DNA of 37,156 nt, taken from the NCBI GenBank assembly GCA_903917755.1, contig CAIXBT010000148.1, forward strand, positions 1 through 37,156, in the 5' to 3' direction. The notes beneath the pieces are model-generated. The model was not told the DNA's origin and did not search any database. It saw only the letters and a list, made by a program, of their open reading frames with translations. This DNA is from an uncultured Bacteroidota bacterium (GTDB lineage Bacteria > Bacteroidota > Bacteroidia > Chitinophagales > LD1). The position numbers were made by a program, and so were the translations under genes. This document shows positions 2,528 to 28,547 of the stretch, in pieces; position 1 is the stretch's first letter, and each line of letters begins with the position of its first letter.

Positions 2528-4861
2528 ATGACCAGAAGTTTACTCATTATCATCACGGCCATTTTGCTCAGCGGCACACTGTTTGCCGGCGATCCGTTCA
2601 CCAAACATGAACTGGCAAATGGTCTGACAAAAAGGGCTACCCTCAAACTGGCTGACCGCTACTATGCTGAGTCAATCTTCTACACTGCTGCGGAGGAATA
2701 CAAGCTGTACCTGCAGAAAAAGCCCGATGACCGCTATGCTACCTATTGGTTAGGTATGGCGCTCTATCAGGCCCGTGATTACAAAGGTTCTCAGGCTGCA
2801 TTTGAAGCATATTATGCGTTGAAGCCCGGCAAAAAAGACACAAAAGAGAAATGGGAAAAACAGGAAAGGGAATTTTTTAAACTGGGCCGTTTATATTATG
2901 GCATGGTACTGCACCGCAATGGAAAGTATGATGAAGCACAGGAGCAGTTGAGGAAATTCAAAGTGGAGTATTATACTACAGATCAGGCTCAGCAGACGGC
3001 GTTGGTCAAACTCGCTAATCTGGAAATGAAAGGCTGTGACTCTGCCAAAGCCGTAAGAAAACTCAAGATCAAGATCAAGGCGCTACCCGAAGGTATCAAT
3101 ACAGCCTATACTCAGTCGGCACCCTTTCTGTATGATGACAATACACTCTATTACACCAGTCTCGATGAGAATGCGCTGGTCAACTATACAGACGTAAAAA
3201 ACAAAAAGTACACGAATATTTTTGTGGCGAGCAAACATGGAAAAACATGGAGCAAAGACCATAAAATGCCTTCCACTGTGAATGAGGACAAGTATTTCAC
3301 CGGTAATGGAACTTTCAATCCTGACAGGACCCGTTTCTATTTTACTAAATGCCTCGAGATGGATGACGACAGATCTCTGTGCAACATATTCGTGTCTGAT
3401 GTGAAGAATGGAAAACTGACAGGCGATATCAAGCGTCTGCCGGAAGGCATAAACTTCGAAGGCAAATATACTTCCACTCAGCCCACCGTCAGGAAGCTAG
3501 ACGAGAAGCGCGATATAGTCTATTATGCGACCGACAGAGAAGGTGGCAAAGGTGGCCTCGATATATGGTACACTCAGCGCACAGGCGATGGTGAATATAT
3601 GGCACCGAAACCACTGGCCCATGTCAATACTGTAGGAGATGAGGTGACGCCTTTCTTCGAAGACAGCAGCAAAACACTTTATTTCAGTTCAGACGGTCTG
3701 CCGGGTCTCGGTGGCTTCGACGTATTTGCTACCGTGCTCAATATGGAAGAAAGCTCATGGACCGAACCACGCAATATAGGCAAACCACTCAACACCGGCG
3801 CTGATGAACTCTACTACTCTGTACAGCCCGATCAATCGTATGGCTACTTTGTATCAAACAGAGAAGGCTCGATCCCGCTCGCAGGCATCTCTACTGCTTC
3901 TGACGATATCTTTTATTGGGAAAACCTCCACTTTGCAGTAGATGGCGAGATCACTAAAAAAGGCGACCCTACATTCTCTATGGCTGGTGCCCGTTTCAAT
4001 CTCTACCGCACCACACCTGAAGGCAAGAAAGAACTCATCGCTGTAGATTCCACATCTACCAATGGTAAATACTTCTTCAACCTCAGCCCTGACAAGGACT
4101 ATGAAGTAGAAGCAGTAAAAGACGGCTTCCTTCCTCAGGTAGATAAGATCACCACCAAAGGACTCGATGCAGAAGATACCCTCAATGCCAATATGAAAGT
4201 GGCGAAAGACGGATTCATTGTCTATGGCAAGATCATGGAAAATGATTCGCTCTTTTATCCCGGCATCATGAACGCCAGCATGCTCATATATGAGGTCAAA
4301 GGCGGACGCGAGTATCTCTTCAGAGAATTGACAGCCACAGATTCATTCTATGTCACTACGCTTCCTACCGAAAGAGATTTCAAAGTACTGGCTCGCAAAG
4401 ACGGCTATTTTGCAGGCAATACCCGCATCACTACTAAAAACCTCCCGCAAAATTTTGACTCACTCAGAGCCGATATCAAGCTGAACAAAGTGATAGTCAA
4501 CAAAGACTATCGCCTGTCAAATATCCTCTATGAGTTCGATAAAGCAACCCTTACTAAATCATCTATGCTGGTGCTCGATACCCTGTATGACATCATGAAG
4601 GACAATCCTTCTTTCGTTATCGAGCTTTCATCACACACCGATGGCAAGGGTTCTGATCCGTACAACTTAAAACTCTCTCAGGCACGTGCCCAGAGCTGCG
4701 TTGATTACCTCATCAAAAAAGGTGTCGCCAAAAAACGTATGGTACCTGTAGGATACGGTATGCGCAAACCTGTAGCACCAAACAAAAAACCTGACGGCTC
4801 CGACAACCCAGACGGTCGCGCCACAAACAGACGCACAGAGTTCCGAATCACTAAGATTTAG
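2528..4861 (+). CDS. PorE-like protein: TPR, beta-propeller, carboxypeptidase-regulatory-like domains, OmpA C-terminal domain
   Basis: A 777-residue exported protein (signal peptide about 1-20, ending LFAG). Domains in order are TPR-like helices (about 30-160), a PD40/WD40-type propeller (about 186-460) with repeated FxxDxxTLYYTS and GGFDVF-type blades, two carboxypeptidase-regulatory-like modules (about 468-555 and 560-645), and an OmpA-type peptidoglycan-binding domain (about 658-777). The last contains SSHTDGKGSDPYNLKLSQ and NPDGRATNRRTEF. This order is that described for Porphyromonas PorE, a periplasmic protein anchoring type IX secretion components to peptidoglycan. Here there seem to be two regulatory-like modules rather than one. 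The adjacent PorP/SprF gene fits that role. Similar OmpA/PD40 proteins are numerous in Bacteroidota, so involvement in secretion is inferred. Confidence 0.85.
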   Translation: MTRSLLIIITAILLSGTLFAGDPFTKHELANGLTKRATLKLADRYYAESIFYTAAEEYKLYLQKKPDDRYATYWLGMALYQARDYKGSQAAFEAYYALKPGKKDTKEKWEKQEREFFKLGRLYYGMVLHRNGKYDEAQEQLRKFKVEYYTTDQAQQTALVKLANLEMKGCDSAKAVRKLKIKIKALPEGINTAYTQSAPFLYDDNTLYYTSLDENALVNYTDVKNKKYTNIFVASKHGKTWSKDHKMPSTVNEDKYFTGNGTFNPDRTRFYFTKCLEMDDDRSLCNIFVSDVKNGKLTGDIKRLPEGINFEGKYTSTQPTVRKLDEKRDIVYYATDREGGKGGLDIWYTQRTGDGEYMAPKPLAHVNTVGDEVTPFFEDSSKTLYFSSDGLPGLGGFDVFATVLNMEESSWTEPRNIGKPLNTGADELYYSVQPDQSYGYFVSNREGSIPLAGISTASDDIFYWENLHFAVDGEITKKGDPTFSMAGARFNLYRTTPEGKKELIAVDSTSTNGKYFFNLSPDKDYEVEAVKDGFLPQVDKITTKGLDAEDTLNANMKVAKDGFIVYGKIMENDSLFYPGIMNASMLIYEVKGGREYLFRELTATDSFYVTTLPTERDFKVLARKDGYFAGNTRITTKNLPQNFDSLRADIKLNKVIVNKDYRLSNILYEFDKATLTKSSMLVLDTLYDIMKDNPSFVIELSSHTDGKGSDPYNLKLSQARAQSCVDYLIKKGVAKKRMVPVGYGMRKPVAPNKKPDGSDNPDGRATNRRTEFRITKI

Positions 4862-4883
4862 GTGTAGAACGAAAGTTGTATCT

Positions 4884-5330
4884 ATGTTTATTCGAATTAT
4901 TAAGGGTAATAAACCTGTTGGGTCTTCTATTATCAATAAAAAGTCAACTTGGGTTTTGTGTATTCTAATAGGCATTGGAATTTCCATACCCATAACTATT
5001 GGAGTTCTTCGTCAATGCAAAATCTATACAAAGGGAAGTTTAGTTAAAGTACTGGTGGTAAATGTACCAGATAATAGTAGAGGTAATTCTAACGGAAGAA
5101 TGAATTTTGAATTCAATGGTAAACCATATGACATTAGTGTTCGTGGTCCTGTCAGTAAAGTATATCATGTTGGAGACACAATATTACTTAGATATCTTAA
5201 TGAGGATGAAGGACTTTTTATGCTCCCAAATAAAAATCCTATAATCGATGGCTTACTATATTTTATAGCAATGTCAATAGCAATTGCGGGCTGTGTTTAC
5301 TATTTAATAAATACACCTGTTGTAAAATAG
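4884..5330 (+). CDS. Small two-helix membrane protein, unknown (DUF3592-like layout)
   Basis: A 148-residue protein with a hydrophobic segment at about residues 25-43, a soluble stretch of about 75 residues with a strand-rich pattern (MNFEFNGKPYDISVRGP, then VGDTILLRYL), and a second hydrophobic segment at about 124-142. A helix, then a small beta domain with a G-D-x-[IV]-x-[VL] turn, then a helix resembles DUF3592-type proteins, but I do not recognise the family firmly. It starts 22 bases after the PorE-like gene and may be read with it. Base composition is visibly more AT-rich than in the preceding gene, which could mean recent arrival. Confidence 0.6.
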   Translation: MFIRIIKGNKPVGSSIINKKSTWVLCILIGIGISIPITIGVLRQCKIYTKGSLVKVLVVNVPDNSRGNSNGRMNFEFNGKPYDISVRGPVSKVYHVGDTILLRYLNEDEGLFMLPNKNPIIDGLLYFIAMSIAIAGCVYYLINTPVVK

Positions 5331-5458
5331 ATCGCAAATCAGAAATAACCATCCAATGGTATAGATAATTTCATACCCTAAGCCCGCGCAGTTTTTTTTA
5401 TGTCATTTATAATAAATATATAATAACTTCGTTCTTGTCGGGAATCCAATAAAATCTT

Positions 5459-5545
5459 ATGAAAATATTTGCTTTCTCATTGCTGGTGCTTGCTATCCTA
5501 TTCGGAGCCGCGCAGGTATATGAACTCCTGCAGATCGAGAGATAG
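5459..5545 (+). pseudogene. Orphan lipoprotein signal peptide (5' part of a gene split by inversion)
   Basis: ATG at 5459 opens a 28-codon frame starting MKIFAFSLLVLAILFGA, a textbook signal sequence (Lys, then a long hydrophobic core). After codon 17 it runs into sequence that is the complement of the gene on the other strand and stops at TAG 5543-5545. The upstream region is AT-rich, as expected for a Bacteroidota translation start. No body is encoded in this orientation. Joined at GGnGCC to the minus-strand frame (see 5498-6070), the reading becomes LFGA-VSC-KKE, a plausible lipobox. I interpret this as the promoter-proximal end of a lipoprotein gene whose body is now inverted. Confidence 0.7.
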
Positions 5546-6070
5546 CCAGCCGTATCGGGTGCCGATGCTGTCTGTTTTTTGGAAGCCAAAATAATGAATG
5601 GAAGTGTCAGACCCTGAATAATCAGGCGGATATCCGTATTGATAGTAATCGCGATAATGACCATTGAGTAATGCCGCAGGGGCTGTGCTAAATCTATTGG
5701 TAGCAGAGAGCGAATCTCCGAAAGCAGGGCTGACCGGGTTTGTGCAAACGGAAAAGTTCGGGTTCAGAAAGCTATCCAGAGTGGCAGTCTGGGCATAGTC
5801 AAAATAATTGCCGAGAGAACAGACATAGCCTTGCCTGGTCTGGGTACATGAGAGGCGGATGCGTGCATCGGGAGTGCTGTCGCCATCGAGGTCTATGAGA
5901 TAGAATGATCCGCAGCCGCAAACCAGTTTATTGCCTGAGAAATAGAATGCTTGTGTAGTGATTGTTGATGCGGAATTGGGGTGCAGGGGCTTTGAGGCTG
6001 TTTCCTTTTTACAGGATACGGCACCTATCTCGGCGGTACCTACGGTCAGGGCATCAGAGCAGGTATTCAC
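5498..6070 (-). pseudogene. Inverted body of a secreted lipoprotein, lacking its own start and signal peptide
   Basis: The frame holds up to 190 codons with good protein character: a Cys-rich first half, IDLDGDSTPD (a VCBS/FG-GAP-like DxDGD calcium-type motif), and a C-terminal GFQKTDSIGTRYGWLSLDL resembling the last strands of many Bacteroidota secreted proteins. It has no ATG; the only usable start is GTG at 6070, in frame with and 9 bases after the mpl stop. Its first residues (about 1-17) do not form a signal peptide, yet residues 17-22 read AVSCKK, like a lipobox plus mature N-terminus. Its last codons (GSE-stop) lie over the + strand signal-peptide frame. Both ends therefore look foreign to the body. 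See the inverted segment 5504-6025. Confidence 0.65.
5504..6025. other. Apparent ~522 bp inverted segment (candidate phase switch or fixed inversion)
   Basis: GGAGCCG (5504-5510) and CGGCACC (6019-6025) form a short imperfect inverted repeat, 6 of 7 matching. Inverting the DNA between them restores one continuous + strand frame. It starts at 5459 with 17 signal-peptide codons, continues with residues 18-188 of the present minus-strand frame (beginning VSCKKE), and ends with 16 codons from 6026 on (TYLGGTYGQGIRAGIH), stopping at TGA 6071-6073. Both joints keep frame, giving about 204 residues. The repeat is shorter than usual for invertase sites, and no recombinase gene lies in the window. Confidence 0.6.
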
Positions 6071-6073
6071 TGA
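6026..6073 (+). pseudogene. Stranded 3' end of the split lipoprotein gene
   Basis: Together with the preceding ACC, the + strand reads TYLGGTYGQGIRAGIH and stops at TGA 6071-6073, three bases before the mpl stop on the other strand. It has no start of its own. The ending IRAG-x-H resembles the short final strand (often I-x-AG-x) of Bacteroidota secreted proteins with a YGW-type penultimate strand, which is what the inverted body carries. Confidence 0.5.
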
Positions 6074-6076
6074 TGA

Positions 6077-7441
6077 CTATAGCTTGCTTATGATGGTTTG
6101 AGCCATGCTCTTCACATCCATCCCCCCAAACTGCCCGCTCGTCATAAGCAGCAGATTATTCTCATGCCAGTCCTGCGACAGCAGAAACTCCTGTAGTTTT
6201 TCTTTCTCGCTAAACACCCTCATATCATCCCGCCCGAATGAACTGATGATCAACGCCGGGTCCAAGGGAGGCATCTGTTTCAGCTTCATAGCTTCATGAT
6301 CGATGAATACCACCGCCGTATCTGCCTTATCCATCCCTCCATGATATTCCTGCAGGAAATCCTTATTCAGACTGCTGAATGTATGCAGTTCCATCACCGC
6401 CGTCAGCCTGCGCGTAGGATATTGCTCTTTCATAGCATTCACCGTAGCCTGCAGCTTTGAAGGCGAATGTGCAAAGTCTTTATAGACCACCGTGTGCGCA
6501 TTTTCACCCAGTTTTTCCAACCTGTTTGCCGCCCCTTCGAAAGTACTCATGGCGGTATAAAAATCATGGTCCGAGATACCTACCTCACGGCACACAGTTC
6601 TCGCACCTTCCATATTCTGCATATTATGAGTACCGAATACCACCATCGGATATTCGCCCTCCGCCGTCTTCACATAGGTCTTATTATCGCGCACTTCATA
6701 GCTGGCCGAGGTATAAGGAATAGCCCTCGCCGCACCGCTGTAGTCCGCAAATATCCTTTGCAGCTCCTTATCACCCGCATAGTACGACATCGATCCGCCC
6801 GCCTCCACACTGTTCGCGAACTTCCTGAACTGATTCACATAGCCATCATACACCGGAAACACATTGATATGATCCCACGCCACACCCGTTATCAGCGCTA
6901 TATGTGGATGGTAAAACATAAATTTCGACTCCCGCTCTATCGGCGATGCCAGATATTCATCGCCCTCTATCACAATGATTTCCGCCGACTCGCTCAGTCG
7001 CACACCCGTATCAAAACCCTTCACTTTGGCACCAACCATATAGTCTATATCGCGCCCGCACTCATGCAGCACATGCATTACCATCGAGGTGATGGTGGTC
7101 TTGCCGTGGCTGCCGGCTATCACTATACGCTTCTTGTTTTTAGAAACCTCATAGATATAATGCGGGAAAGAGTATATCGGTATCTTCAGTTCCTGCGCCC
7201 TCAGCAGCTCCGGATTGTCTATCCGCGCATGCATACCCAGTATCACCGCATCCAGCCCCGCATGTATCTTTTCGGGGAAAAATCCCTCCGTTTCCGGCAA
7301 TATCCCTTCTTTACCCAGATTGGTTCTGGCTGGATCAGCTATCTTATCATCCGACCCCAAAACCTGATATCCCTGCCGTTTCAGAGCAATGGCGAGACTG
7401 TGCATCACGGCACCTCCTATGGCTATAAAGTGTACATTCAT
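6077..7441 (-). CDS. mpl: UDP-N-acetylmuramate:L-alanyl-gamma-D-glutamyl-meso-diaminopimelate ligase (Mpl), murein recycling
   Basis: A 454-residue Mur-ligase family enzyme of normal Mpl length that attaches recycled tripeptide to UDP-MurNAc in the cytoplasm. It begins with the nucleotide-binding start MNVHFIAIGGAVMHSLAIAL. The ATP P-loop IAGSHGKTT is at about residues 108-116, an EGDEYL stretch at about 160, and the C-terminal ligase domain (YKDFAHSPSK, about 320) follows. DFAHSPSK in place of the usual D-[YF]-A-H-x-P is typical of Mpl. It is divergent from the micro-lipoprotein/bacilliredoxin pair, and its 3' end abuts the inverted segment. Confidence 0.9.
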   Translation of the reverse strand: MNVHFIAIGGAVMHSLAIALKRQGYQVLGSDDKIADPARTNLGKEGILPETEGFFPEKIHAGLDAVILGMHARIDNPELLRAQELKIPIYSFPHYIYEVSKNKKRIVIAGSHGKTTITSMVMHVLHECGRDIDYMVGAKVKGFDTGVRLSESAEIIVIEGDEYLASPIERESKFMFYHPHIALITGVAWDHINVFPVYDGYVNQFRKFANSVEAGGSMSYYAGDKELQRIFADYSGAARAIPYTSASYEVRDNKTYVKTAEGEYPMVVFGTHNMQNMEGARTVCREVGISDHDFYTAMSTFEGAANRLEKLGENAHTVVYKDFAHSPSKLQATVNAMKEQYPTRRLTAVMELHTFSSLNKDFLQEYHGGMDKADTAVVFIDHEAMKLKQMPPLDPALIISSFGRDDMRVFSEKEKLQEFLLSQDWHENNLLLMTSGQFGGMDVKSMAQTIISKL

Positions 7442-18567: not shown

Positions 18568-18894
18568 TTATGAAGAAACAGTCAGATGGCCCGATCCGTA
18601 GCCTCCCCGGATCACATTGCTTTTGCCGTAATTGACGCCGTAATTGCTATGTTCGGCTATGGCATCGGAATAATATCCGTAATGCGTATACATGCCGTAG
18701 TAATTGTCTCCGATGGGGCGAAAGGCTCTGTACCACATATGTGTGTGATAGGTGGGGCTGAATTCTGCCGTAGTGTCGGATCTCATATATACATGCCGGT
18801 CTCCTGCTGTCCATTCGTTTTCGGGGTCGTGCTTATTGCATGAGGCGAGGGCAGCAGTGATCAAAACCAGTGATATAGCTCTTGATTTTTTCAT
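18568..18894 (-). CDS. Small lipoprotein with C-terminal RGGYG motif
   Basis: A 108-residue lipoprotein: signal MKKSRAISLVLITAALASC with lipobox LASC, then a Tyr/His-rich mature part (MWYRAFRPIGDNYYGMYTHYG), ending SNVIRGGYGSGHLTVSS. It is a clear paralogue of the protein at 19309-19623 (same signal-peptide wording, same ending pattern). The RGG[FY]G motif resembles that near the end of E. coli YgiB (DUF1190), which is partnered with the same ATP-grasp family. The gene sits 4 bases after the lipoprotein gene at 18899 and 7 bases before the ATP-grasp gene. A substrate or partner role for the ligase is inferred. Confidence 0.78.
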   Translation of the reverse strand: MKKSRAISLVLITAALASCNKHDPENEWTAGDRHVYMRSDTTAEFSPTYHTHMWYRAFRPIGDNYYGMYTHYGYYSDAIAEHSNYGVNYGKSNVIRGGYGSGHLTVSS

Positions 18895-18898
18895 GGGG

Positions 18899-19225
18899 TC
18901 ATTTTACTGTGATATATATTTCATATTCACGTGGAGAAAGCACTTGTTTATTGCTGCCGTCCTGATCTGTGGCATCATTCATGCCGCTGCCAAGAGAAGG
19001 CAAAGTATCATGCGTCACAAATGTTTTGACCATCGAGCGGTTCTTCCATACTTTGTGAGTAGTGGTCAGCATGTCGTAAGTCTCATTGAGATGAGAGACG
19101 GCGACTTCAGTCTCTATTGAACCATCTTTGTCTACCATTTTTACTTTGTCTTCGGGTACTGTATTAGAGTCACATCCGCTCAGCAGAAGCAAAGCTGCCA
19201 GGATAAATGAAACAGTCATTCTCAT
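18899..19225 (-). CDS. Small lipoprotein, unrelated to its two neighbours
   Basis: A 108-residue protein with a lipoprotein signal (MRMTVSFILAALLLLSGC, lipobox LSGC). The mature part is charged with predicted strands (IETEVAVSHLNETYDMLTTT, WKNRSMVKTFVTHDTLPSLG) and ends REYEIYITVK. It has no RGG[FY]G motif, and I do not recognise the family. It lies inside the operon between the two RGG[FY]G lipoproteins, 83 bases after the first and 4 bases before the second. Confidence 0.72.
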   Translation of the reverse strand: MRMTVSFILAALLLLSGCDSNTVPEDKVKMVDKDGSIETEVAVSHLNETYDMLTTTHKVWKNRSMVKTFVTHDTLPSLGSGMNDATDQDGSNKQVLSPREYEIYITVK

Positions 19226-19308
19226 GAGATATATTTTATGTAATTGGTATTTCTTTGGCCGTAGGCAAAGTATACATTTTTATGCTTTTGACAAACTGGT
19301 CACTCAGA

Positions 19309-19623
19309 TCATGAAGAAAAACTGTGTGTCAAACCATGAACCCCGAAACCTCCGCGTTCTATGGTTGTACTATGTTTATGGTTAGGGCCGGTATAAAAAC
19401 TGCTAGGTACCTGAAAGTATAAAAATGACCCATTTCTGTCGTATTGGTTGCCAGGTGTAAAAGACGTACTGTCTGATAGAAATGCTTTATTCCAATGCTC
19501 CGGCATACTGGTATCGGGTGGGATATAACTGTTGTACTGGGTTTCATAGGAAGGAAGCGGCGAACGACAGGATGCCAAAGCCGAGGTGATCAGAACAAGT
19601 GACAGCAACTTTGATTTTTTCAT
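19309..19623 (-). CDS. Small lipoprotein with C-terminal RGGFG motif
   Basis: A 104-residue lipoprotein: MKKSKLLSLVLITSALASC (lipobox LASC), a Pro/Tyr/Ser-rich mature part, then HSTTIERGGFGVHGLTHSFSS at the end. The signal peptide and the ending are shared with the protein at 18568-18894, while the middle has diverged, so the conserved parts are the membrane anchor and the RGG[FY]G tail. It is the first gene of the operon running to the ATP-grasp ligase and is divergent from ettA (226 bases between starts). The last stretch after the motif is about 10 residues. Confidence 0.77.
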   Translation of the reverse strand: MKKSKLLSLVLITSALASCRSPLPSYETQYNSYIPPDTSMPEHWNKAFLSDSTSFTPGNQYDRNGSFLYFQVPSSFYTGPNHKHSTTIERGGFGVHGLTHSFSS

Positions 19624-21708: not shown

Positions 21709-23279
21709 ATGATAAATTTAAGGCGTAATAAATGTATCTTGAAATCAATGTTTACTCGAAGAATATTACTCTTGATAGTCGTATTAAGCATAGCAATATT
21801 ATGCCTGTTCAATTACTTTTTTGGGTATACTCTACTGGCATCTCCTGAACTTATTCAAAAGTGGTTTCCCAGATTCGGATGGTTATGGTTGCACATCCGT
21901 GATTTTTTGAATTTATTTTTGGTAAGTATATTTATCATCAGCTTATCAGCTTTTTTGTGGTTTTATAGTTCTAATATTGCAATTGCAGTAAGGCAGTACC
22001 GGCTAGAACTTAGATTGTCAATAATCAGCAGTATTTTTATTTTGACCATAGGGGAGGTCGCATTGCGACAAATCGGTTATCGTCCGGGGCACATTAACTA
22101 CCTTTATAATCCAACTACTTTTGTAGATTCATTGATCGAATACAAAGGCTATCTGGCCGATGAAAACGCAATGACCTATACAGATCCGCTGGTAGCAGAT
22201 AAGTTACATACGTATCTTAAATTAAAAAACAGCGTAAATCCATCTGAAGAGGATAGCGCTTCGCGAATGGATTGGAGCAAAGTGGCCTGGGACATCAGCC
22301 AACTGACCTCATCATATTTCGATGTTATTTCGGCTAAGGATACGAGTGAGTTTACCAATTTTTACCAGGCCATTAAAAAGAAGCCACGGCCCGATCCATT
22401 TGATTCGTTGATCCTGAATTACGTTTTCACACCGATCAATAAAGAAGGGTTTAGGAGTATTGAATTTCGAAAGCGATCTACAAAAAAAAGGATTTTATTT
22501 ATTGGCGACTCCTTCACTTTTGGTATGACTGCGAGCAACCGACTCGCCAGTTTTTATGACAGACGTCTAGCCAGAGGTTATGAAGTATATAATACAGGCA
22601 TAATAGGCGCTGACCCTCCACAGTACCTTGCTGTAGCCGAGAAATATATCCCTTTACTGAAACCTGATATTGTCATTATCAATTTTTATCTAGGCAACGA
22701 TATCCAATACTACAGGCAGAACTTTAGACCATATCAGACTTATTTTTATCGCTCAAATGCAGGCGCGTTGCTTGCTTGTCCTTTTGGAGTGCCTATGAAA
22801 AATGCCAGAGAGGCTTGGGAGTTAGACAGAGATTACAATATGATCCCCATCGACAGATCTTTACTGAATAAAGTTTGCAGCAAATTAGCGATCACTACTC
22901 TATTCTGGAATGCATTCAGAAATGTTTTTCATTTCGAAACTCACAGTGCCAGATATAAAGATTTTTTAAAGAGGGCAGATGCTTTTAAAATAGATCACCC
23001 GGATGCCAATGATAGAATACCGATCATCGAAAAGTTGTGTATAGACAATGATTCAAAATTCGTCCTTTCTGTAATACCCAGCTTAAAGGGAGATGGGCGG
23101 ATATTGAAATATGCCGGAGATGATAAGCGTTTATTCCCTGCTCAATCTTTTTTGAGGATAAGGAACTTATCGAGTCAGACTATTGCGCCAATGGTGATAC
23201 ACACTTCAATGATAGAGGCCACCTGAAGTATGCAGCCTATTTGCAAAAGATCATAGACTCGCTTTCTGCTCAGCAGTAA
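21709..23279 (+). pseudogene. SGNH/GDSL-hydrolase-like membrane protein, interrupted by one frameshift
   Basis: The first frame (21709-23226, 505 codons) has two or three N-terminal membrane helices (about 18-38, 60-85, 100-118), then an SGNH-type domain: block I ILFIGDSFTFG (about 262-272), NTGIIGADPPQYL, and block III NFYLGND (about 324-330). It ends without the catalytic block V. That block, DTHFNDRGHLKYAAYL, lies in the -1 frame, continuous from a T6 run at 23148-23153 (T-TTT-TTG in frame 0) to TAA 23277-23279. One extra T, or a -1 ribosomal slip, would restore a ~523-residue protein. The gene may be a pseudogene, a sequencing error in the homopolymer, or a frameshifted gene. Such proteins often act in acylation or deacylation of envelope glycans. 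Confidence 0.75.
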
Positions 23280-23361
23280 ACTGAAATAATGAAACAAATT
23301 TAATTCTTGGATCACATATAGTCCGGATTTGTAATCCCGAACTTATAGCATATTTTCAGGT

Positions 23362-25490: not shown

Positions 25491-26753
25491 TCAAGGTTTC
25501 ACCAGTAGTTTGCCCATAGCAAGGACGATGCGTTTGAATATCGGGCCATGCGATCGCGGGTGACCTTCGAGAAAGCCATCAAAGAACATTTTAGTATATA
25601 CCACCGCAAACAGCGCACAGTTGATGTGTTTGAACTTGCGGCCTGCATGCCATAACTCTACATTGGTACTGCCATTTTTTTTCATGGTCTCATATGCCTT
25701 GACAGAGTTTCTGTAGGTCACCTGATCGTCACCTTTGCAGTAGCACAACTCTGTCGGTGATTCGGGTTTCCAGTCATATACATTGTTTGACGCGAGGTAT
25801 TTTCTGAATGGCGAATCCTTGTTCTGATCAAAGTCTCTGTAGAATTCAGGCTTCACTGCTTTGAAGCAGGTATCGGGCAGGCAGGAGTTGATGAACTCTA
25901 TAGGCCATTGTCCGGTCATCAGCGACGGTATGATCGTATCATAAGGATGGCATAGCAGTTCGCCCATCTGCGGCTGACTATCCCGACTCTCATAGAATGA
26001 TGACATGAGCAGCATCAGATAGCCGGGGTTGTCATTAGGTTTGGCGCGTGCGTCATAGACAGTACTCTCGATATCATAGGGGCCGCTCATAGGTGAGGCC
26101 GCTGTGACAGGAAAACGATCCTTGTATTTCTCCTGAAGCAATTTATAAGTAGCCATCGAGGCATGTCCGCCCTGCGAATAGCCGGTCAGAAATAAATTCT
26201 TGCTGGTATTGACCGATAGCGATGGAAGCAGATCGGTCACAGCTATCAGCATATCTACAGACGCACTGGCCTCTGTGGGTGCGTTGAGATATATCTGGTT
26301 TCTCTCACCTTCGCCTATACCTATATAGTCGGGCCAGACCACCACATAGCCGTCAGTCGCAAATCCAAGACAGATGGCCTGTTCATCTTTGCCATCGAAA
26401 TAGAGGTCGCGGCAGGTATTGGTACCGTGATTATATATCATCAGTGGTGCGGCTCTTTTGGCACCCTGAGGCACATATAGCACACCTGAGGCTTTGACGA
26501 TCTTGCCATCTGAGTGTGTAGTATAGTAAAATATCTCATAAACATTCAGCCCTTCTTTGGCTGCGAGGATTAGCTTGGGAATATGCTGCTCTTTGAAAAG
26601 AGTCTTCATATCCTGCGGCGAAAAGCTCCTGAGTAGCCTGTATTCTACTAGCTGCCCAGCTTGTTTTTGCGCAAATGTCTGATGCGACATCAGCGACAGA
26701 AATAATATCCATAAAAAAGGCGCAAGTATGCGTGGATGTATTACAAAAGGCAT
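25491..26753 (-). CDS. Secreted lipase-like alpha/beta hydrolase, paralogue 1
   Basis: A 420-residue secreted protein (signal peptide about 1-29, ending TFAQ). It carries YNHGTNTCR (oxyanion region), VWPDYIGIGEGE, the nucleophile motif LTGYSQGGHASM (Ser about residue 189), and a late catalytic Asp and His consistent with the secretory-lipase (LIP) group or related acyl-peptidase-like hydrolases. A Cys-rich spread in the mature part (CLPDTCFK, CYCKGDD) suggests disulfides, fitting periplasmic or extracellular use. It is closely similar along its whole length to the next gene and 126 bases from it. Substrate unknown. Confidence 0.83.
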   Translation of the reverse strand: MPFVIHPRILAPFLWILFLSLMSHQTFAQKQAGQLVEYRLLRSFSPQDMKTLFKEQHIPKLILAAKEGLNVYEIFYYTTHSDGKIVKASGVLYVPQGAKRAAPLMIYNHGTNTCRDLYFDGKDEQAICLGFATDGYVVVWPDYIGIGEGERNQIYLNAPTEASASVDMLIAVTDLLPSLSVNTSKNLFLTGYSQGGHASMATYKLLQEKYKDRFPVTAASPMSGPYDIESTVYDARAKPNDNPGYLMLLMSSFYESRDSQPQMGELLCHPYDTIIPSLMTGQWPIEFINSCLPDTCFKAVKPEFYRDFDQNKDSPFRKYLASNNVYDWKPESPTELCYCKGDDQVTYRNSVKAYETMKKNGSTNVELWHAGRKFKHINCALFAVVYTKMFFDGFLEGHPRSHGPIFKRIVLAMGKLLVKP

Positions 26754-26879
26754 GGTATGAAAATTTCGCTGGCGAAAGTAATGTACATTATAAATAAAAT
26801 TAGTTAAATGTGAGTTAAATATGATATGAAAAAATATTTGTATTTACTGACAACTGGTAACTGATCACCGACAATAGAT

Positions 26880-28109
26880 TTAAGGTTTCACAAACAGTTT
26901 GCCGATATTCAGTAATGCGCGTTTACCAAGTGGCCCGTGCGACATCGGGTGGCCTTTCAGAAAGCCATCAAAGTACATTTTGGTATATACCACTGCGAAG
27001 GTGGCGCAGTTGATATGCCTGAACTTTCGGCCCACCATCCATAGTTCCACGTTCTTGCTTCCGTTTTTCTTCATGGCATTATAGGCCGTGATGGAGTTCT
27101 TGTAGGGCACCTGTTCGTCATGCATACAGTAGCACAACTCCGTAGGCGATTCCGGCTTCCAGTCATAGATATTATTGGCCCGCAGGTATTTTCTGAAAGA
27201 TGAATTCTCATCTTCAAATTCTTTAAATATTTCAGGTTTCAGGGTCTTCATACATATATCTGGCAGTAGGGCATTGAGTACTTCTTCGGGCCAGCATCCA
27301 TTCATCATGGGAGGTATCAGCGTATCATAAGGCGGCACAAGCACGCGCCCCATCTGCATCATACTGTCTTTGCTCTCGTAGTAGGATGCCAGCAACATCA
27401 TCAGGTACACAGGGTTCTCATTGGGCAGCAGGCGGGCTTCATATACGGTGCGCTCTATATCATAAGGGCCACTCATGGGCGATGCAGCCGTGATCGGAAA
27501 ACGCTCTTTGTATTTCTCCTGCAGCAATCTGTAGGTAGCTAAACATGCATGTCCGCCCTGCGAGTAGCCGGTCAGAAACAGGTCCTTATTGGTCTTCACA
27601 GATAACGAGGGTAGCAGATCACTCACCACGAGCAGCATATCTACCGTGGCACCGGCTTCCGTAGGGGCATTGAGCATGATCTGGTTGCCCTCGCCTTCGC
27701 CCATTCCGATATAGTCTGGGCATAGCACGACATAACCATCGGTAGCAAAGGCCAGACAGATGACCTGCTCATCTTTGCCATTGAAATAAATATCGCGGCA
27801 GGCATAGGAGCCGTGATTGTATACCAGAACGGGAGATGGCTTGTCGCCCTGCGGCACATATAGCTGGCCCGATGCTCTGACCAGTCGGCCATCTGCATGC
27901 CTAGTGTAATAATGTATCTCATATACATTCAGGCCCTCACGTGCTGCGAATATCACTTTGGGGATGTGCTCTGCCTTCAACCATTGTTTTACCTCATCTG
28001 CAGAGAAGCTTCTGATCAGCCTGTAGTCAATGAGTTTAGCTGCCTGCCCGGATGCCTGACTGTGCCATAGCAGCGGCACTATCAATATCCAAAGAAAAAA
28101 TTTGTGCAT
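26880..28109 (-). CDS. Secreted lipase-like alpha/beta hydrolase, paralogue 2
   Basis: The start is placed at 28109 (MHKFFLWILIVPLLWHS..., a proper signal peptide); the 17 residues upstream in the same frame are not signal-like. The 409-residue product mirrors the downstream paralogue: YNHGSYACR, LCPDYIGMGEGE, LTGYSQGGHACL (Ser about 178) and the same Cys-rich patches (LLPDICMK, CYCMHDE). Identity is high enough by eye to indicate tandem duplication. The direction of transcription puts this copy first, with the long AT-rich upstream region as its control region. Confidence 0.82.
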   Translation of the reverse strand: MHKFFLWILIVPLLWHSQASGQAAKLIDYRLIRSFSADEVKQWLKAEHIPKVIFAAREGLNVYEIHYYTRHADGRLVRASGQLYVPQGDKPSPVLVYNHGSYACRDIYFNGKDEQVICLAFATDGYVVLCPDYIGMGEGEGNQIMLNAPTEAGATVDMLLVVSDLLPSLSVKTNKDLFLTGYSQGGHACLATYRLLQEKYKERFPITAASPMSGPYDIERTVYEARLLPNENPVYLMMLLASYYESKDSMMQMGRVLVPPYDTLIPPMMNGCWPEEVLNALLPDICMKTLKPEIFKEFEDENSSFRKYLRANNIYDWKPESPTELCYCMHDEQVPYKNSITAYNAMKKNGSKNVELWMVGRKFRHINCATFAVVYTKMYFDGFLKGHPMSHGPLGKRALLNIGKLFVKP

Positions 28110-28547
28110 GATGAAGACGGAGTTGAAAAATGTTCGGTGAAAATAATGAACCATGTACAAAGGCGGACGCTATATCTTTCAAAGCTCGATTAAACGGGAT
28201 GAACGGCATTGCGGAGACGGTTTTTATCACACCAGAAACGGGGAACATAACTTGACACTTTTTTCATTTATATATAAATGGAAATTCATATTTGACATTA
28301 TGGATCACTTTTTTCGAAAAAACTAATACCCTAAAAGTCAATTGCTTCAATATTTGCGAAAATGAAATGAGTTTTTTAAATATGCATAATGAACATTTAT
28401 TTGCTTTAAATAATTAATAAGTGTAAATATAGTTAATTGCTGTGTAAATTTCAAATGCTTTTGTGAAAACAGAAAAGTCCTGGTACAACACAAAACTAGG
28501 TAAGCAGATTCCCTCTCACTATAAGGCACACTATCATTTCTTCACTT
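28110..28547. other. 438-base spacer without a supported gene
   Basis: The region is AT-rich and its short open frames have no protein character. It holds a 16-base perfect palindrome (28265-28280) between two CACTTTTTTC direct repeats (28256-28265 and 28306-28315) and two TTGACA hexamers (28252, 28292). This is the upstream control region of the lipase-like gene at 28109 and the downstream region of the small gene at 28548. Confidence 0.6.
28265..28280. repeat. 16-base perfect palindrome, possible operator
   Basis: CATTTATA-TATAAATG is perfectly self-complementary. It overlaps by one base the first of two identical CACTTTTTTC decamers exactly 50 bases apart (28256 and 28306). An AT-only palindrome can arise by chance in such DNA, so a binding site for a dimeric regulator is only a suggestion. 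Confidence 0.35.

Follow-up and report, generated by a model that had tools for sequence, protein, structure and literature searches.

Probable inversion of the middle of an accessory lipoprotein gene in the draft genome of an uncultured Bacteroidota bacterium

Analysis of a 37,156-nucleotide stretch of DNA (the window, which is contig C148 of a 4.05-Mb draft genome in 430 contigs) provides good support for a lipoprotein gene with an inverted middle, and the inversion is probably real. The explanation preferred here, which is held with somewhat better than even confidence, is that an accessory lipoprotein gene was inactivated recently by a single, non-programmed inversion at the scale of microhomology. 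In the ancestral state, a secreted accessory lipoprotein would have been encoded by approximately 204 codons on the plus strand (5459-6073). In the sequenced lineage, a segment of approximately 516 bp (close to 5507-6022, with ends that cannot be fixed exactly) would have been inverted in place without net loss, leaving the signal peptide and the last residues on the plus strand and moving the body to the minus strand, so that the lipoprotein would no longer be made. The cause would most likely have been one illegitimate and presumably irreversible event, in which 4-7 bp of microhomology served for template switching or end-joining. The inversion appears to be recent, since the body frame is still open and undecayed.

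Anatomy of the locus and the restored reading frame

The broken gene is located between orf148 (4884-5330, plus strand) and mpl (6077-7441, minus strand), and the following elements can be distinguished.

5459-5506, plus strand: lipoprotein signal peptide MKIFAFSLLVLAILFG, outside the inverted segment (translation, and the Met-to-Cys distance of 20 in the homologue)
5504-5510, plus strand: left arm GGAGCCG of an imperfect 7-bp inverted repeat (direct reading), in which the exact homology is only GCCG at 5507-5510
5507-6022, minus strand: inverted segment with the lipoprotein body, which lacks both a start codon and a signal peptide (open reading frame and translation, codon score, residues matched in G002)
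5543-5545, plus strand: stop codon TAG, which limits the signal-peptide frame to 28 residues as the locus is now oriented (translation)
6019-6025, plus strand: right arm CGGCACC of the imperfect repeat (direct reading)
6023-6073, plus strand: putative C-terminal tail TYLGGTYGQGIRAGIH with stop codon TGA at 6071-6073, outside the inverted segment (translation) and covered by no homologue

Translation of plus-strand positions 5459-5545 yields MKIFAFSLLVLAILFGAAQVYELLQIER followed by a stop. On the minus strand, the frame that runs to 5498 is an open stretch lacking both an ATG and a signal peptide; it includes GAVSCKKE...WLSLDLQEFIYLRGSE before its stop. The plus-strand frame that closes at 6073 gives GTYLGGTYGQGIRAGIH from approximately 6017 up to its stop. 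Translation thus confirms the three pieces described in the initial annotation, namely a signal-peptide start, a startless body, and an in-frame tail. The restoration to one frame of about 204 residues with a lipobox that had been claimed on this basis was reproduced as well: turning 5507-6022 round by exchange at GGAGCCG and CGGCACC generates a single 204-residue frame in which residue 20 is a Cys. The lipobox signal peptide of this frame ends in that Cys (MKIFAFSLLVLAILFGAVSC-KKE), as is typical of Bacteroidota lipoproteins. Codon usage of the body, the signal peptide, and the tail is in each case best in the claimed frame, which is a weak signal that for the tail nearly ties with an antisense frame. 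No named family could be assigned to the restored lipoprotein on basis of Pfam or PDB, neither of which gave a match, or of NCBIfam, in which the best hit (E = 0.17) was far below the cut-off.

Evidence for the two joints

The initial annotation had considered two in-frame repairs from one event unlikely by chance. Evaluation of every pair of breakpoints with a left end at 5470-5559 and a right end at 5960-6073 (10,260 pairs) revealed that 1,164 pairs, representing 874 distinct inversions, connect the ATG with the same TGA in an uninterrupted frame (11%, or approximately 1 in 9). The in-frame joints are therefore not a strong argument by themselves, and the frame does not fix the breakpoints. 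Of these inversions, 8, all in one register, also place Cys at position 20 in accordance with the homologue, and among them the breakpoint pair proposed initially has the most homology (4 bp exact). The best 7-base match in that register is 6/7, and 9 of 121 nearby registers are equally good, which places the 7-bp repeat within chance; the argument that had been drawn from the repeat fails on these counts and on the exact homology of only 4 bp. The claim of an arrangement beyond chance is only partly right; what speaks for it is the start of the gene, to which a homologue of the same architecture adds. In related loci, 152,558 bases of single strand contained 19 signal-peptide-like ATG starts, those of real genes among them (approximately 1 per 8 kb). 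That such a start stands at the very position required by the body, and in the right frame, is beyond chance and supports a true inversion.

The homologue is the sole relative found among roughly 900 distinct genomes searched, and belongs to a member of the same genus (G002:C272). It reads MKIGYIFCLMLFALGSFTSCKKD...ACGSDNYLIDLDFDGVPDAKIRLNC in one frame that comprises signal peptide, SCKK, and body, until the contig end cuts it after 110 residues. Its signal peptide and lipobox are MKIGYIFCLMLFALGSFTSC-KKD, its Cys is residue 20, and the pattern YLIDLD.D..PDA.IRL.C is matched; the distance from Met to Cys is 20 residues in both this relative and the restored gene. Over the first 20 residues, the restored protein scores 24 against the relative, as compared to -9 for the present minus-strand frame. 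With respect to the signal peptide, the restored gene scores 11 and other lipoproteins score up to 13 over 17 residues; since unrelated signal peptides score as well, the match supports the architecture and not the descent of particular residues.

The search for homologues spanning signal peptide and body, proposed earlier as a check, thereby agrees with the front joint, which is supported at the level of architecture by the signal peptide that directly precedes SCKK in the relative. The rear joint lies beyond residue 110, where the relative ends, and would follow from the reading frame. Full-length, body, and C-terminal queries against genomes of the family, order, and phylum returned only signal-peptide look-alikes or antisense matches with respect to this joint, and the other half of the G002 homologue was not recovered. 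A search of a contig database for close relatives returned only the same G002 contig (PLSN01000389.1), and viral contigs and PDB contained no match to the lipoprotein. A match in G002:C307 was rejected as a homologue, as it is antisense to a SecDF-like frame.

Origin of the inversion

A fixed inversion and an assembly error had both been listed as alternatives to a switch, and the former is now preferred whereas the latter is kept as a rival. In case of an assembly error, the cells would carry an intact lipoprotein gene and the inversion would be artefactual, which is compatible with the fragmentation of the draft, with the 500-bp scale of the event, similar to that of a library insert, and with the lack of decay in the body frame. 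However, neither joint contains a repeat of k-mer length, the sequence is single-copy with no second copy in the assembly, and the window is without Ns. Moreover, bases are usually lost or duplicated when a piece is misplaced, which contrasts with the restored protein at this locus and its front spacing, identical to that of the homologue. An artefact is considered unlikely on this balance, although it is the likeliest of the alternatives, and a mixed population is likewise conceivable in a draft of 430 contigs.

A recombinase that flips 5507-6022 would render the lipoprotein phase-variable, the assembly having caught the OFF state. Such an intragenic inverton is rated as quite unlikely, despite the two in-frame joints, the surface lipoprotein encoded, the undecayed body, the imperfect 7-bp inverted repeat, and the 10 tyrosine-recombinase and 2 serine-recombinase matches elsewhere in the genome. 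The recombinase of an inverton is often encoded next to it. None of the matches in this genome is on contig C148, in which PF00589 and PF00239 are both without a match, in accordance with the earlier remark that no recombinase is nearby, and the assembly does not include a contig with the alternative orientation. Exchange by a tyrosine recombinase depends on approximately 6-8 bp that are identical between the sites, and that by a serine recombinase on 2 bp plus flanking half-sites. The mismatch in the 7-bp core and the exact homology of 4 bp argue against the former enzyme, and the absence of flanking half-sites argues against the latter; mutual similarity of the sequences beyond the 7 bp is at chance level. 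The site is not conserved in the relative that carries the gene, since G002:C272 has other bases at this position, and GGWGCCG occurs once in the 7.6-kb contig of the homologue, at 2349-2355, outside the gene. The repeats flanking known invertons are 10-40 nt in length (PMC11892184), versus 4 bp exact, or 7 bp with one mismatch, at this locus, where the equally good match in 9/121 registers also counts against a dedicated site.

Among perfect inverted repeats between the two ends, the longest is GCCGTATC (8 bp, 5549-5556 with 6015-6022), which overlaps the right arm of the proposed 7-bp repeat. It was rejected as the site of exchange, since an inversion at this site, past the TAG at 5543-5545, could not restore the gene.

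The ON/OFF switch suggested initially is thus possible but unsupported, given the 4 bp of exact homology in an imperfect 7-bp repeat, the lack of flanking symmetry, and the lack of a site in the homologue, of a recombinase on the contig, and of a contig in the other orientation. In its full form, in which a recombinase encoded elsewhere flips most of the coding sequence of a phase-variable surface lipoprotein between 7-bp imperfect repeats, it is judged improbable; if true, it would widen the range of intragenic invertons to repeats shorter than those covered by current searches.

Finally, there may have been no inversion, the minus-strand frame being what is left of a lipoprotein gene after a rearrangement removed its start and the plus-strand pieces being fortuitous, but this is distinctly unlikely, as the restoration of the frame by 1 in 9 breakpoint pairs, the neighbourhood that is rearranged relative to the genus, and the rear joint without homologue are to be set against a rare signal-peptide-like start exactly where it is needed and at the spacing of the homologue.

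The short and imperfect repeat, together with the absence of a site in the homologue, of a recombinase on the contig, and of an alternative contig, makes a non-programmed inversion the simplest reading. Small non-programmed intragenic inversions at microhomology arise by illegitimate recombination, and the case described here shares with them a balanced short inversion, a few bases of homology, and a pseudogene as the product; it differs only in being still readable, because it is undecayed. The fimS element of Escherichia coli is an invertible promoter with exact 9 bp inverted repeats and adjacent fimB and fimE recombinase genes. Like fimS, the present locus has a few hundred bases between very short inverted repeats, but its segment is coding, its repeat is imperfect, and no recombinase gene is adjacent. 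Intragenic invertons (Chanin et al. 2024), to the extent that they are outlined where cited in PMC11892184 and PMC11868660, likewise involve inversion of a segment within one gene by which the product is changed or truncated; compared to that outline, the locus is without an inverted repeat of the usual length and without a nearby recombinase, and has one orientation in the assembly.

As it stands, the locus most likely represents an ordinary lesion in one rare gene. If the inversion is present in the cells, it would be a clean, short, balanced intragenic inversion of the sort for which gene callers would report an antisense orphan, and which would escape searches for invertons based on repeat length. 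Should it prove reversible, the surface protein would be phase-variable and its sites unusually short.

Gene neighbourhood and other features of the window

In five members of the genus, mpl is followed by trxB, with the trigger factor gene often next where the contig is long enough. This is not so in the window, and trxB and tig are found together on contig C150 of this genome. The gap beside mpl where trxB stands in the relatives is filled by orf148 and the broken lipoprotein gene (4861-6077). Given this difference from the genus, the lineage had already undergone rearrangement in the region around the lipoprotein gene, as would be expected of an accessory gene at a labile spot, and this counts in favour of the explanation preferred here. 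One of the five genus members has an OmpA-like gene approximately 6.4 kb beyond the mpl 3' end.

Elsewhere in the window, an SGNH-hydrolase-like frame (21709-23280) is shifted at a run of six T residues (23148-23153) and continues one frame over as ELIESDYCANGDTHFNDRGHLKYAAYLQKIIDSLSAQQ, followed by a stop; this shift may represent a sequencing error, a frameshift mutation, or slippage. Three consecutive short lipoprotein genes of 104-108 residues are encoded on the minus strand at 18568-19623, two of which have near-identical signal peptides, suggesting duplication. Two similar secreted lipase/esterase-like genes (420 and 426 residues) are located in tandem on the minus strand at 25491-28160, and probably also originate from a duplication.
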